Positions 2,373 to 59,103 of a stretch of 59,174 bases of DNA are shown here, in pieces. Below the pieces are notes generated by a model. That model had not been told where the DNA came from. It did no database searches and saw only the letters and a program-made list of their open reading frames with translations. Both the position numbers and the translations under genes were made by a program. Each line of letters starts with the position of its first letter. Position 1 is the stretch's first letter. The DNA comes from Thiovulum sp. ES (lineage in GTDB: Bacteria > Campylobacterota > Campylobacteria > Campylobacterales > Thiovulaceae): positions 1 through 59,174 of the forward strand of contig AKKQ01000007.1 of the NCBI GenBank assembly GCA_000276965.1, written 5' to 3'.

Positions 2373-3257
2373 TTATTTCATAGATTCAACACCACTGATA
2401 ATCTCAATGAGTTCAGTAGTAATTGCTTCTTGTCTTGCTTTATTAAATTGAACTTTTAAGTTCTTAACCATCTCTTTTGCATTGTTAGTTGCAGCATCCA
2501 TTGCTTGCATTCGAGCCGAATGTTCCGCAGCTAACGAGTCAATTAGAGAATAATACATGTTATATTCAACATACTTTTTAAGAAGTGCTTCAAGAACAAG
2601 CTCTTCATTGTATGCCTCAATCTCAAGAGTCGAATCGTCTTTAGATTTTTCAATCTTCTGAACATCAACAGGTAAGAGTTGATTAATTTTCATCTCTTGA
2701 GTAATCATGTTTTTGTAACCGTTGTGAATTAGATAAACTTTATCAACTTCACCATTCACAAAACTATCAACAACAGGAGAAATGAAATTTGTAGATTTCT
2801 CATAGTCAGGAGCAGAGCTTAGACTAGTTGAAGTATTTTCCATTTCTCGTTTGTTGTATTTGAAGAACTCAACACCCTTTTTTCCAACACCGTGAAGTGT
2901 AACTTTTGCACCTTTTGACTCATAATCTCGGATTAGTTTGCTAACCGTTTTAATTGTCGCATGGTTAAAAGCACCACAAAGACCTTTGTCTGCTGTTACA
3001 AAAACAACAGCAACATTTTTGACCTCATCGGCTTGTTTGAAATAGAGAGATTCAACACTATCTTCACTTGCAGACTCAAGCGAACCAGCGATTTTTCCGA
3101 GAACCTCATTTAGTTTTGTAGCATAAAGACTTGACTTTTTAGCCAACTCTTCCGCACGGCGAAGTTTTGCAGTTGATACCAGTTTCATGGCACGAGTAGT
3201 CTTCTGAGTTCCAGAGACACTCTTTATCTTTCTTTGAATATCTTTTAGATTCGCCAT
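2373..3257 (-). CDS. atpG: F1 ATP synthase subunit gamma
   Basis: The rotating central stalk of F1. The 294-residue protein has the conserved N-terminal helix ([20 protein letters not shown]) and a C-terminal helix with [13 protein letters not shown], which insert into the alpha3beta3 hexamer. It lies between atpA (15 bases) and atpD (11 bases) in the usual order. Its sense strand carries an exact CGATGAGGTC copy at 3021-3030, encoding A-D-E-V. Confidence 0.98.
3021..3030 (-). repeat. CGATGAGGTC copy, exact (atpG)
   Basis: Exact 10-mer on the sense strand of atpG, encoding DEV. It is the only copy in the 5.3-kb ATP synthase cluster. Confidence 0.9.
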
Positions 3258-3272
3258 ACCCTAATTCCTCAC

Positions 3273-4784
3273 TTATGCAGAAAAGCTAACTTTGAACTCT
3301 TCAAGTGCCTTTGTTAAAAGCGCTTCAGACTCTTTAGTCAGTTTTTGATCCGCAACAATCTGTTTCGGTAAATCTGGATATTTGCTATTGATGTAAGAGT
3401 AAAGTCCATTTTCAAATTCAGAAACTTTATTTGTACTCATTGCATCTAAATAACCTTTATTTCCTGCAAAAATAATAATTACTTGATATTCAGGAGCAAC
3501 TGGTGAATATGGTGGTTGTTTAAGAACTTCTACCATTCTAGCACCTCTTTCAAGTTGTTTTCTTGAAGACTCATCTAAATCAGAAGCAAATTGTGCAAAT
3601 GCTTGTAGCTCTCGATATTGAGCAAGGTCTAGTCGAAGTGTTCCCGCAACTTGTTTTGTAGCTTTGATTTGAGCAGCCCCGCCAACTCGAGATACAGAAA
3701 TACCAACATTAATCGCAGGTCGAACACCAGAGTTAAATAGATCTGTCTCTAAGAAGATTTGTCCATCAGTAATTGAAATAACATTTGTAGGAACATAAGC
3801 AGCAACATCTCCCGCTTGAGTCTCAACAATTGGTAATGCAGTTAAAGAACCAGCACCTTTTTCATCACTTAATTTCGCAGCTCTTTCAAGAAGTCTACTG
3901 TGAAGATAGAATACATCCCCTGGGAATGCTTCTCGACCTGGAGGTCTTCTAAGAATTAGAGACATTTCTCGGTATGCAACTGAATGTTTAGATAAATCAT
4001 CATAAATAATAAGACCGTGTTGTCCATTATCTCTGTAATACTCACCCATTGTTACACCTGTATATGGTGCAAGGAATTGAAGAGCAGATGACTCAGAAGC
4101 AGAAGCAGATACGATTGTCGTATATTCCATTGCTCCAGCTTCTTCTAATCTTTTTACAATTTGTGCGATTGAAGACTGTTTTTGTCCAATTGCAACATAA
4201 ATACATTTAACATCTCGACCTTTTTGGTTGATGATTGTATCGATTGCAACAGTTGTTTTACCAGTTTGTCTATCACCAATAATAAGCTCTCTTTGACCTC
4301 GACCAATTGGAACAAGTGCATCAATCGCTTTAATACCAGTATGAAGTGGTTCATGAACTGATTTTCTAGCCATGATTCCAGGTGCTTTCTCTTCAACGAA
4401 TCTCTCTTCCGCTGCTTCAATTTCACCTTTTCCATCGATAGGCTGACCAAGTCCATCAACAACTCTTCCAAGCATGTTTGGACCAACTGGAACTTTAAGA
4501 AGTTTTGCTAATCTTTTTACAGATGCACCTTCTCTTAAGTGTGAGCCATCACCAAGAACAACAACCCCAACAGAGTCCTCTTCTAGGTTAAGAGCCATAC
4601 CTTTTGTACCGTCTTCAAACTCGACCATTTCACCAGCCATAACATTTGAAAGACCATAAACTTTTGCAATATTGTCGGCAAGTGTAACAACTTTACCGAT
4701 TTCGTTAATATCGACATTTAGTTCAAAGCTAGAGATTCTCTCTTTAATTATTGAACTAACTTCGTCAGCATTAATTTTCGCCAC
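3273..4784 (-). CDS. atpA: F1 ATP synthase subunit alpha
   Basis: The regulatory nucleotide-binding subunit of F1, 503 residues as usual. The P-loop GDRQTGKT is at residues 170-177, and the alpha-subunit signature [14 protein letters not shown] lies near residue 365. It lies between atpH (23 bases) and atpG in the conserved order and forms the alpha3beta3 head with AtpD. Confidence 0.98.
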
Positions 4785-4807
4785 TCGAACTCCTCTCAGA
4801 ATTTAAA

Positions 4808-5338
4808 TTATATAGCTTTTAAAATATGATTGATCATATCTGTTTTAATTCTATCAGCAGAAACAGAAATCTCAACATGTAACTCATCAATAACAACTTT
4901 AATTCCTGAAGTTTTTGAAACCTCCTGAACCAAAGTTATCTGTTTTCCGAGCTTTTTACTCAATCCATTTGCAATTGAAGAAACACTAACATCGTTCAAT
5001 TTTTTAGACGATAAAAGTTTTCCCTCAAATTTGCCAGTTTCAACAGCAATTAATGAAATTAACTCTTTTGAAATGGCAGGAATTTCTGCAATTCGACCAT
5101 TTTTAACAAGTAATTTTAAGAAATTTGAGACTCTTTTGTCATCTGTTGATTTTGCAGAATCAAGAAGAATTTTCTCTTTTTCAGAATTTGATGTTAAATT
5201 TGATGTTAAAACAGCTCTACCTTTTGCATCTGCTAGAGTATTTGAAATAACTTTTAATAATTCGTTTAAGTCTGTTAAAGATTCGCCTTTAAACTCTTCT
5301 TTAATAGCTTTTACATATTTTTTAGCAATGACACTCAT
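4808..5338 (-). CDS. atpH: F1 ATP synthase subunit delta
   Basis: The peripheral-stalk subunit linking F1 to the b/b' dimer. The 176-residue protein has an N-terminal helical bundle and the C-terminal pattern typical of OSCP/delta (IKVVIDELHVEISVSADRIK). Its start codon directly abuts the atpF stop, so the two are probably translationally coupled. Confidence 0.93.
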   Translation of the reverse strand: MSVIAKKYVKAIKEEFKGESLTDLNELLKVISNTLADAKGRAVLTSNLTSNSEKEKILLDSAKSTDDKRVSNFLKLLVKNGRIAEIPAISKELISLIAVETGKFEGKLLSSKKLNDVSVSSIANGLSKKLGKQITLVQEVSKTSGIKVVIDELHVEISVSADRIKTDMINHILKAI

Positions 5339-57135: not shown

Positions 57136-57206
57136 CTCCAAAATTTAATTCTTCTTTAATTCAAAAAAACAGTTTCAAAAACACACTAAAAATCAAAAAT
57201 CTCTTT

Positions 57207-57215
57207 TGTTAGAAT
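57207..57215 (+). promoter_or_regulatory. Extended -10 promoter of the YyaL-family gene
   Basis: TGTTAGAAT is an extended -10 box; predicted start near 57,222, 16 bases before the ATG. Confidence 0.45.
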
Positions 57216-57237
57216 TGAAAAAAATTAGGAAAGAAAT

Positions 57238-59103
57238 ATGGCAAATAAATTAGAACTTGAAGATTCTCCATACCTTCAACAACACAAAAATAATCCTGTG
57301 GATTGGTATCCGTGGGGAGAAGAGGCAATTCAAAAAGCAATTGATGAAGATAAGATGATTTTTCTTTCAATTGGATACAGCAGTTGTCATTGGTGTCATG
57401 TTATGGAAAAAGAGAGTTTTGAAAATGAAAAAATTGCGGACTTGTTAAATGGTAGCTTTGTTTCAATAAAACTTGACCGAGAAGAGAGACCAGATTTAGA
57501 TAAATACTATCAAGATTTGTATGCTTCTGTTTATAAAAAAGGTGGAGGATGGCCTCTTTCAGTTTTTTTGACTCCAGAAAAAAAGCCATTTCACATTGAC
57601 ACATATATTCCTGAAGTGAGAAAATACAATAAAGTTGGAATGGAGGAATTACTTCCTGCGATGATTGAAGAGTGGATTTCACGAAAAGAGAAAATCTTAG
57701 AAGCAGGAAATCAAATCCACCAATTTGCAGAACAAAAAACACAAAACATTCCAAGAGAAATTGAAAATGGAATGACTGAACATTTTGTAAAAATTGTCGA
57801 ACAAAACTTTGATAGTAATTTTGGTGGTTTCTCAAAACCTCCTAAATTTCCACAAGTTGGAATTTTAAAAACTCTACTTTTACTAGATTCGACAGAAATG
57901 GTAGAAAAGACACTTTTAGAAATGACAAAAGGCGGATTTTACGACCTCATCGATGGTGGATTTTGTAGATACTCTGTTGATGAACGATGGCTTGTTCCAC
58001 ATTTTGAAAAAATGACTTATGACAACGGTCTGCTTTTAGAACTTCTTTCAGATCTATATCTTAAAACTGAAAATCCACTTTTTAAAAGATTTGCAACTGA
58101 AACAGCAAATTTTTTACTCTCCAAAATGGAAAAAGAGAATCTATTCTATTCAGCAAGTGATGCAGACAGTGATGGTGAAGAGGGAAAATATTTTACATAC
58201 AAACATCATGAAGTTGTAGAAAAAATAGATTATCACACTCTCCAAAATCTCTCAATTACTCCATACGGAAATTTTGAAGAAAACTCAATTGTTCGAGTTG
58301 AAAATCACAAAGAGCTTCCGAAAGAGTTCCAAATTTTGAGAAAAATGAGAGAGACACGAAACTATCCAAATATTGATAATAAAATTATCACATCTTGGAA
58401 TGCAATGGCAGTAAAAGGTTTTTTCCGACTTTCAAAAATAGACAAACTCTACAAACCAATTGCAGAACTCTCTTTACAAACATTACTCGAAACAATGTCT
58501 GTTGAAAATACTCTTTTTCACTCAACAATTAGCGGAAAAAAACCTAAAATTTCAGGTTTTCTTGAAGATTATGCCTATCTTTCAGATGTTCTTGTTGAGG
58601 CATATCAGCAAACTTACAACTCTTTCTATTTGGAAAAGTTGGAACAAATTCTTGATTTGGCAATTGAAAAGTTTCACCGTGAAAATCGTTGGTATTCATC
58701 AGAAAAAGAGAGTGATGTTGAAGTTGAAGCAGAAAGTGAAGATTCTTCTTATCCATCAAGTCGTGCAAAAATTGTTTCGTCACTCATTTCGGGTTCTGCT
58801 CTATTAGATAGAAGAGACTTTTGGCAAATTGCTGAAGATACAATTTCCCACTCAATTTCAAACTTTTGGCGATACACAACTGCTTACGGCTCTTTAACGG
58901 AAGCAATTTGGAAACACGATGGTGAAGTTCTTGTTGTTAAATCGACAGAAGAAAACTTAGACAAATTAGATTTTAATTCACCAAAAATCTTAAAAAAAGT
59001 TTCTCAAGAAAAAAGTTTTGAAATTTGCGGAATCGGTCTTTGTTACAATAAAGTTGTAACTGTCGATGAGGTCAAGGATTTTATTAAAGGTTTTTGGGCA
59101 TAA
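57238..59103 (+). CDS. YyaL/spermatogenesis-associated 20-family thioredoxin-domain protein
   Basis: A 621-residue protein. Residues 1-160 form a thioredoxin-like domain (DUF255) with the family opening [20 protein letters not shown], the cysteine motif SSCHWCHVM and [14 protein letters not shown]. The rest is an (alpha/alpha)6-barrel-like region with [23 protein letters not shown] and [12 protein letters not shown]. The precise function is unknown; a redox or sugar-related role has been suggested for the family. AGGAAAG precedes the ATG. The length is somewhat below the 650-700 typical. Confidence 0.93.
57943..57952 (-). repeat. CGATGAGGTC copy, exact (yyaL-family gene)
   Basis: Antisense copy followed by G; the gene strand encodes Y-D-L-I-D. 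Confidence 0.9.
59064..59073 (+). repeat. CGATGAGGTC copy, exact (yyaL-family gene)
   Basis: Sense copy near the 3' end of the gene, encoding V-D-E-V-K. Confidence 0.9.

Follow-up and report, generated by a model that had tools for sequence, protein, structure and literature searches.

The stretch of DNA analysed here, 59,174 nucleotides of contig AKKQ01000007.1 of Thiovulum sp. ES (called the window below), carries many copies of one short word in genes as different as atpG, ligA, pnp and a PilB/GspE-like gene (Table 1). The word was noted in an original prediction, made from the sequence alone, as the 9-mer CGATGAGGT and was taken to be an undescribed DNA uptake sequence dispersed through unrelated genes; the placement of the copies in open reading frames (ORFs) bears out the dispersal. 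A recount of the window gave the same 29 exact copies (14 plus, 15 minus) against 0.12 expected from dinucleotide shuffles, and none of 100 shuffles attained that number. The tally of the next base (C 16, T 8, G 3, A 2) and the start positions of the exact 10-mers were likewise correct, while the GC content, assumed to be about 34%, was measured as 32%. The 9- and 10-mers are over-represented as described, but the true invariant unit is the 8-mer core GATGAGGT. The window holds 36 copies of it, 33 of them entirely within listed ORFs, with three exceptions. Unbiased k-mer counts put the motif or words overlapping it at the top of the 8- to 10-mers, in the window as well as in a further 394 kb of ES sequence, and the similarity among copies is limited to 8-10 bp. 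The one hairpin form reported earlier is weak in the window, where the partners of the closest inverted pair (14073 on the minus strand, 14134 on the plus) are 61 bp apart; hairpins are clear only in a relative described below.

The window has some other features of interest. Its longest motif-free stretch probably represents recently acquired or foreign DNA, or DNA that evolves fast. The product encoded at 8742..10391 can be placed by its sequence in the GspE/PilB family, with no finer name, and is a candidate component of a DNA-uptake machine. The pilin-like protein matched no Pfam family at E 0.001; its gene adjoins chemotaxis and flagellar genes.

Table 1. Copies of the core GATGAGGT and other features of the window, with the form of each copy in brackets
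Feature	Position	Strand	Remarks
core copy (CGATGAGGTC)	3022..3029	-	in atpG, sense
core copy (CGATGAGGTC)	6975..6982	-	sense in ORF 6383-7570
core copy (CGATGAGGTG)	8433..8440	+	outside listed ORFs
GspE/PilB-family assembly ATPase, 549 aa	8742..10391	-	TIGR02533 E 1e-155, TIGR02538 E 3e-141, both under curated cut-offs
core copy (CGATGAGGTT)	8764..8771	-	PilB/GspE-like gene, sense
core copy (CGATGAGGTC)	9912..9919	+	PilB/GspE-like gene, antisense
core copy (CGATGAGGTT)	10300..10307	-	PilB/GspE-like gene, sense
core copy (CGATGAGGTC)	11663..11670	+	inositol-phosphatase-family gene, sense
core copy (CGATGAGGTG)	11795..11802	-	inositol-phosphatase-family gene, antisense
core copy, variant first base (AGATGAGGTC)	14073..14080	-	inverted pair with 14134 (61 bp)
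core copy (CGATGAGGTT)	14134..14141	+	inverted partner of 14073
core copy (CGATGAGGTC)	15020..15027	+	final copy ahead of 9.6-kb motif-free stretch
motif-free stretch, longest in window (9.6 kb)	15028..24599	.	GC 0.278; surface-polysaccharide genes
core copy (CGATGAGGTA)	24600..24607	-	
core copy (CGATGAGGTT)	24884..24891	+	
core copy (CGATGAGGTC)	27747..27754	-	
core copy (CGATGAGGTG)	28891..28898	+	
core copy (CGATGAGGTC)	30232..30239	-	in CheX-like gene
core copy (CGATGAGGTT)	30694..30701	+	at pilin-like gene start
pilin-like protein, 214 aa	30695..31339	+	distant likeness to 324-aa pilin-like proteins of two sister genomes
core copy (CGATGAGGTC)	31058..31065	+	in pilin-like gene
core copy (AGATGAGGTT)	34125..34132	-	
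core copy (CGATGAGGTC)	36802..36809	-	
core copy (CGATGAGGTC)	39153..39160	+	
core copy (CGATGAGGTC)	42747..42754	-	ligA, sense
core copy (AGATGAGGTT)	43421..43428	+	ligA, antisense
core copy (CGATGAGGTT)	43575..43582	-	ligA, sense
core copy (CGATGAGGTT)	44429..44436	-	
core copy (CGATGAGGTC)	44988..44995	+	outside listed ORFs
core copy (CGATGAGGTT)	46465..46472	-	
core copy (CGATGAGGTC)	46839..46846	+	
core copy (AGATGAGGTC)	49795..49802	+	
core copy (GGATGAGGTC)	51575..51582	-	
core copy (TGATGAGGTT)	53372..53379	+	in pnp
core copy (CGATGAGGTC)	54584..54591	+	in pnp
core copy (CGATGAGGTA)	55187..55194	-	
core copy (TGATGAGGTT)	55437..55444	+	
core copy (CGATGAGGTC)	57944..57951	-	in DUF255/DsbH-like gene
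core copy (CGATGAGGTC)	59065..59072	+	in same DUF255/DsbH-like gene as 57944

Distribution of the word and selection on DNA

Five Thiovulaceae genomes, G000 to G004, were compared; whole-genome counts were made by word searches, and the spacing, codon and flank analyses used sampled stretches of the genomes. G000 is Thiovulum sp. ES (206 scaffolds, 2.08 Mb) and G003 is a closed metagenomic circle of 1.72 Mb; G001, G002, G003 and G004 would correspond to Ca. T. imperiosus, Ca. T. karukerense, Ca. T. stygium (Movile Cave) and the Tui Malila genome. The AtpD protein is 87% identical to AtpD of Sulfuricurvum and Sulfurimonas genomes. The ES genome holds 1062 copies of CGATGAGGT (533 forward, 529 reverse), against 16 (7 + 9) of a control word with the same letters reversed, so the genome-wide enrichment that had been claimed is evident, with counts far above expectation. 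From G000 to G004, the copies of CGATGAGGT number 1062, 418, 145, 374 and 586, and those of TGATGAGGT 227, 978, 427, 522 and 437. The core is enriched in all five genomes; observed and expected counts are 336 and 13 in ES, 200 and 9 in G003, and 81 and 4 in G001. Once the word's own copies are masked from the background model, the excess in these three genomes is about 30-45 times. The flanks make dialects of the kind that a search of related genomes had been proposed to find: ES has mostly C on either side of GATGAGGT, G001 and G003 favour T on either side, and G004 has C or T before and G or T after, followed by G. The base before and the base after the core are preferences that vary by species and are not part of the invariant unit. 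Variants of GATGAGGT with one substitution occur at 0.90-1.03 of expectation; in the same analysis 8-mers within known uptake words gave 1.23 and 1.16 (the uptake signal sequence, USS, of Pasteurellaceae and the DNA uptake sequence, DUS, of Neisseriaceae, respectively), a modest difference. Overlapping words, TCAATCCACAAAGTGG and GGAATATGT among them, are repeated about 16 times within 45 kb of G002 (L106-L110) and may belong to a clustered regularly interspaced short palindromic repeat (CRISPR) array.

Outside the family, CGATGAGGT is mostly near background in 394 other genomes of the order, which represent 22 other families, and so is TGATGAGGT in the 244 of these in which it was searched. 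Comparable enrichment of the motif is confined to the Thiovulaceae within the surveyed order, and the other families are without the word at such density. Some GC-richer genomes, G114 and G126 (f19), G162 (f6), G089 (f17) and G099 (f15), have 120-210 copies of CGATGAGGT, above their reversed-word controls. Dialects were considered in the outgroups with raised counts (G114, G126, G089, G162 and others) and rejected, as samples of 8 to 20 kb gave no enriched GATGAGGT; the raised counts are probably an effect of composition. Between congeners the sites turn over, with 5 of 12 ES sites retained in 18 orthologue pairs. In G003 the motif is denser in intergenic DNA (81 times expectation) than within genes (29 times), and short hairpins are many. 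The intergenic regions of this genome (L111, L137-L152) contain many short inverted motif pairs, 16-41 bp apart, which likely double as transcription terminators. Searches of the literature for the motif word turned up unrelated sequences only, and those combining uptake sequences with Campylobacterota found nothing; no described counterpart of the motif in this phylum was found.

The original prediction also held that protein selection could not account for the copies, and codon usage in ES agrees. There, 262 of 268 9-mers lie inside ORFs, 143 sense and 119 antisense; sense copies mostly encode the tripeptide DEV, and antisense copies DLI or TSS. DEV is written GAT GAG in 172 of 194 cases (48 expected from codon usage), DLI as GAC CTC ATC in 60 of 98 (0.3 expected) and TSS as ACC TCA TCG in 28 of 72 (0.1 expected), while permuted peptides, used as a control, gave nothing comparable in codon choice. 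Selection is thereby shown to act at the level of DNA and not of protein, in every frame open to the word. DEV itself is 4.6-fold above the prediction from residue frequencies, and the word therefore even shapes proteins.

Spacing on the two strands

The most unusual property of the motif is the arrangement of its two orientations. Neighbouring copies alternate strand in 230 of 329 cases in ES (166 +/- 9 expected), a number reached by none of 5000 shuffles, and in 133 of 183 cases in G003 (99 +/- 7 expected). Pairs of copies on the same strand are scarce at distances of 60-800 bp, with ratios to expectation of 0.27 in ES, 0.36 in G003, 0.24 in G001, 0.20 in G002 and 0.53 in G004; the ratios for opposite-strand pairs are 1.22, 1.13, 1.17, 1.35 and 1.08 in the same order. 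On the same strand the ratio rises as a step, from about 0.2-0.45 at distances up to 800 bp to near 1 past 1.4 kb, and the coefficient of variation of same-strand gaps is 0.68, 0.65 and 0.72 in the three best-sampled genomes, against 0.98, 0.97 and 0.90 at random. Control 8-mers of similar abundance follow no such rule (same-strand fraction about 0.54, alternation about 0.48). The two orientations behave as independent combs, one per strand.

Several simpler causes were considered for this rule. Genes that hold a single sense and a single antisense copy number 78 where 30 would be expected, which suggested pairing bound to genes or acting at the level of RNA; this was ruled out as the main cause, since the exclusion is equal across gene boundaries (0.16-0.48 under 700 bp) and opposite-strand copies in different genes are near expectation. 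Inversion artefacts of single-cell assembly were ruled out as well, because the closed metagenomic G003 obeys the same rule. Import proceeding to one side of the motif would make convergent and divergent pairs unequal, and no such difference was found.

The same analysis was applied to the two known families of uptake words. These controls are limited in that they are IMG/VR stretches, largely proviral, assigned to their groups by USS or DUS density alone. The Pasteurellaceae-like set (51 non-redundant stretches, 306 USS) has an alternation of 0.50 and, at 60-800 bp, ratios of 0.63 for the same strand and 0.78 for opposite strands; for the Neisseria-like set (21 stretches, 164 DUS) these three figures are 0.51, 0.89 and 0.90. 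The corresponding values in Thiovulum are 0.70, 0.30 and 1.19. GATGAGGT, whose role in uptake is putative and whose strand rule is unlike that of USS and DUS, is therefore not filed as a member of either. The rule may serve more widely as a purely computational way to separate signals read on double-stranded DNA from those read on one strand, and it sets the length of the step at about 0.8 kb.

Possible functions of the word

The motif is real, genome-wide and lineage-specific, and in most of the respects tested it behaves as an uptake sequence does. The reading we favour, at about an even chance, is that the Thiovulaceae use GATGAGGT, read on a single strand, to recognize their own DNA in natural transformation. 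A pilus-like (type II/type IV) uptake receptor would prefer word-bearing DNA, or else this preference would lie with a protein that acts once the strands have separated, either at ComEC or in the cytoplasm; imported self DNA would replace homologous chromosomal DNA, and the word would accumulate by biased import, more so in weakly constrained sites. Each imported single strand would bear only its own copies, hence two independent combs: a second same-strand copy within one processed stretch of about 0.8 kb would add little, and an opposite-strand copy would count separately. If a signal is read on double-stranded DNA, one copy should render others near it superfluous in either orientation, as is mildly the case for USS; if it is read on a single strand, this holds for copies on that strand alone. 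Single-strand entry through ComEC and resection by AddAB both fit the latter. Transformation is favoured because the strength of the enrichment, the family dialects, the intergenic and hairpin accumulation in G003 and the turnover between congeners are as in DUS and USS. In gonococcal transformation, single-stranded DUS on the Crick strand, but not on the Watson strand, shows some aid (PMC12061091).

The competence apparatus expected by this reading was found. All five Thiovulaceae have ComEC, small ComEA-like HHH proteins, secretins and 6-9 pilin-like genes each; ES has in addition a prepilin peptidase and T2SSG, besides the GspE/PilB ATPase and the pilin-like gene of the window, and type IV pilus genes have been reported in all Thiovulum genomes (PMC9938260). 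The ComEA-like match in ES (L586, G000:C12:19905-20075) contains an in-frame TAA, and either the gene is broken or the stretch was over-read. The uptake-sequence reading is supported in part, by enrichment, strand balance, dispersal, selection on DNA, dialects and apparatus, but not by the spacing rule, and several points weigh against it. ComEC and secretins occur to the same extent in relatives that do not carry the motif, which makes the apparatus a requirement rather than a diagnostic feature. The pilin set is conserved, most of its members have clear homologues in other families, and no receptor candidate confined to the Thiovulaceae was identified among the pilins. ES and G001 are without the intergenic preference of G003, the interchangeability of orientations seen in USS and DUS is absent from GATGAGGT, and the strand rule would follow no less naturally from a Chi-type signal.

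Polarity bears on several of the alternatives. In 17 stretches of G003, one every 100 kb, there are 101 forward and 99 reverse copies, balanced inside each stretch; between the G-rich and the C-rich strand, the copies divide 102 to 98 in G003 and 176 to 160 in ES. No replichore polarity or leading-strand bias of GATGAGGT was thus found, although for Chi this is a weak test, the GC skew being incoherent and DnaA absent. None of the outcomes that the original prediction had named as refuting it was seen, be it counts near expectation, polarity, or a similar density of the word in other families. Coherent GC-skew halves were not found in the closed G003, and DnaA (PF00308) had no match in any of the five Thiovulaceae while being present in all six other families tested; its absence in Thiovulum agrees with an earlier report (PMC9938260). 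The original prediction had held the even strand balance against both Chi and the FtsK-orienting polar sequences (KOPS). The argument stands for KOPS, which are excluded by the forward/reverse balance in every stretch of G003, wherever the origin lies; by itself it is not enough against Chi in a lineage without DnaA and without coherent GC skew. In family f9, GATGAGGT is unenriched in the sampled stretches of the closed genomes G012 and others (L355-L374), and its copies there are nearly all on the leading strand (12 to 0); words with four G and no C, taken together, favour that strand 1.6 to 1 in these genomes.

A Chi-type site is the main rival, less likely but to be taken seriously. An AddAB/RecBCD-like enzyme resecting a broken end would read one strand and switch from degradation to recombination, each orientation would serve the ends coming from one side, hence two combs, and replication that lacks DnaA may depend in part on recombination, which would account for both the density and the missing leading-strand bias. 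Same-strand spacing without exclusion between orientations is the statistical signature of such a signal, the one-substitution variants are unenriched, and DnaA and a replichore structure in the GC skew are both missing. Several known Chi sites are G-rich and free of C, as is GATGAGGT. AddB-like PDDEXK_1 proteins of about 780 aa occur in all Thiovulaceae, but they are no less present in families that lack the motif, and occur in nearly all genomes tested. Moreover, no leading-strand bias is seen, the exclusion steps at about 0.8 kb and does not scale with the 2.6-kb gaps, and Chi enrichment is usually below that of a motif which even shifts tripeptide usage. With somewhat more weight, though still tentatively, one may think of an undescribed strand-specific genome-wide signal of giant DnaA-less bacteria, a regular comb on each strand that would serve copying dependent on recombination, or else the strand-selective integration of single strands taken up from outside. 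It is unlikely that the word is a dispersed strand-specific signal of DnaA-independent replication or repair, a site for priming, loading or nicking on each strand in a cell that is large and may be polyploid. The motif and the absence of DnaA do coincide in these five genomes, DnaA occurs without the motif in each of the six other families tested for it, the closed G003 has no coherent GC skew, and same-strand spacing is regular; yet in a single clade one coincidence is enough, there is no candidate protein, and we know of no DnaA-less organism elsewhere that needs such words. A classical, orientation-blind uptake sequence exactly of the USS or DUS type would account for the density, dialects, strand balance and G003 hairpins, but it is improbable given the strong strand-specific exclusion in all five genomes, absent from the USS and DUS stretches; in H. 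influenzae the orientation of the uptake sequence has no significant effect on uptake (PMC1939737). Finally, a KOPS-type polar guide, a protein or codon effect, a mobile repeat and chance are all very improbable: nothing speaks for them but the DEV/DLI frame preference, itself a consequence of the word, and against them stand, respectively, the balance of orientations in the 17 stretches, the codon controls, the likeness of copies over 8-10 bp only, and shuffles that never reach the count.

Should the word be an uptake signal, as we favour, no accumulated uptake word would have been known before it in Campylobacterota, the phylum to which Helicobacter and Campylobacter belong, and the giant, uncultured Thiovulum would stand out as a bacterium that regularly undergoes natural transformation. 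A Chi-type role or one in replication would raise the question of how a DnaA-less family copies and repairs its genome.

Comparison with known systems

Among the short words known to be over-represented in bacterial genomes, KOPS are non-palindromic like the Thiovulum motif, which in contrast is without any polarity. Chi, recognized by RecBCD or AddAB, resembles it as a short G-rich word whose reading on one strand would make the orientations independent, and an AddB-like enzyme is present; the Thiovulum motif differs in being without leading-strand bias, far more enriched, and limited to one family although AddB is widespread. Highly iterated palindrome 1 (HIP1, GCGATCGC) is a cyanobacterial palindrome whose function is uncertain, from a lineage in which DnaA is not always needed. 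It is a highly iterated word too, but GATGAGGT is not palindromic as that octamer is, and its strands are arranged independently. Within the same phylum, Campylobacter jejuni discriminates self from non-self DNA in uptake through methylation of RAATTY (PMC10046745), a short degenerate methylated motif rather than an accumulated long word. Closer in form is the USS, with its 9- to 10-bp unit: the 1062 9-mers in 2.08 Mb of ES compare with 1471 USS in H. influenzae (PMC1939737), though the USS stretches show a mild, roughly orientation-blind exclusion and the Thiovulum motif a strand-specific one. The DUS, for which ComP is the receptor, is unrelated in sequence, and differs from a motif that has same-strand exclusion within 0.8 kb and is mostly intragenic in ES. 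The likeness lies in a density of about one copy per 1-2 kb on both strands genome-wide, in hairpin pairs (for Thiovulum, in G003), and in dialects built on a core common to the family (PMC3630211), as is also the case for the motif of the Thiovulaceae.

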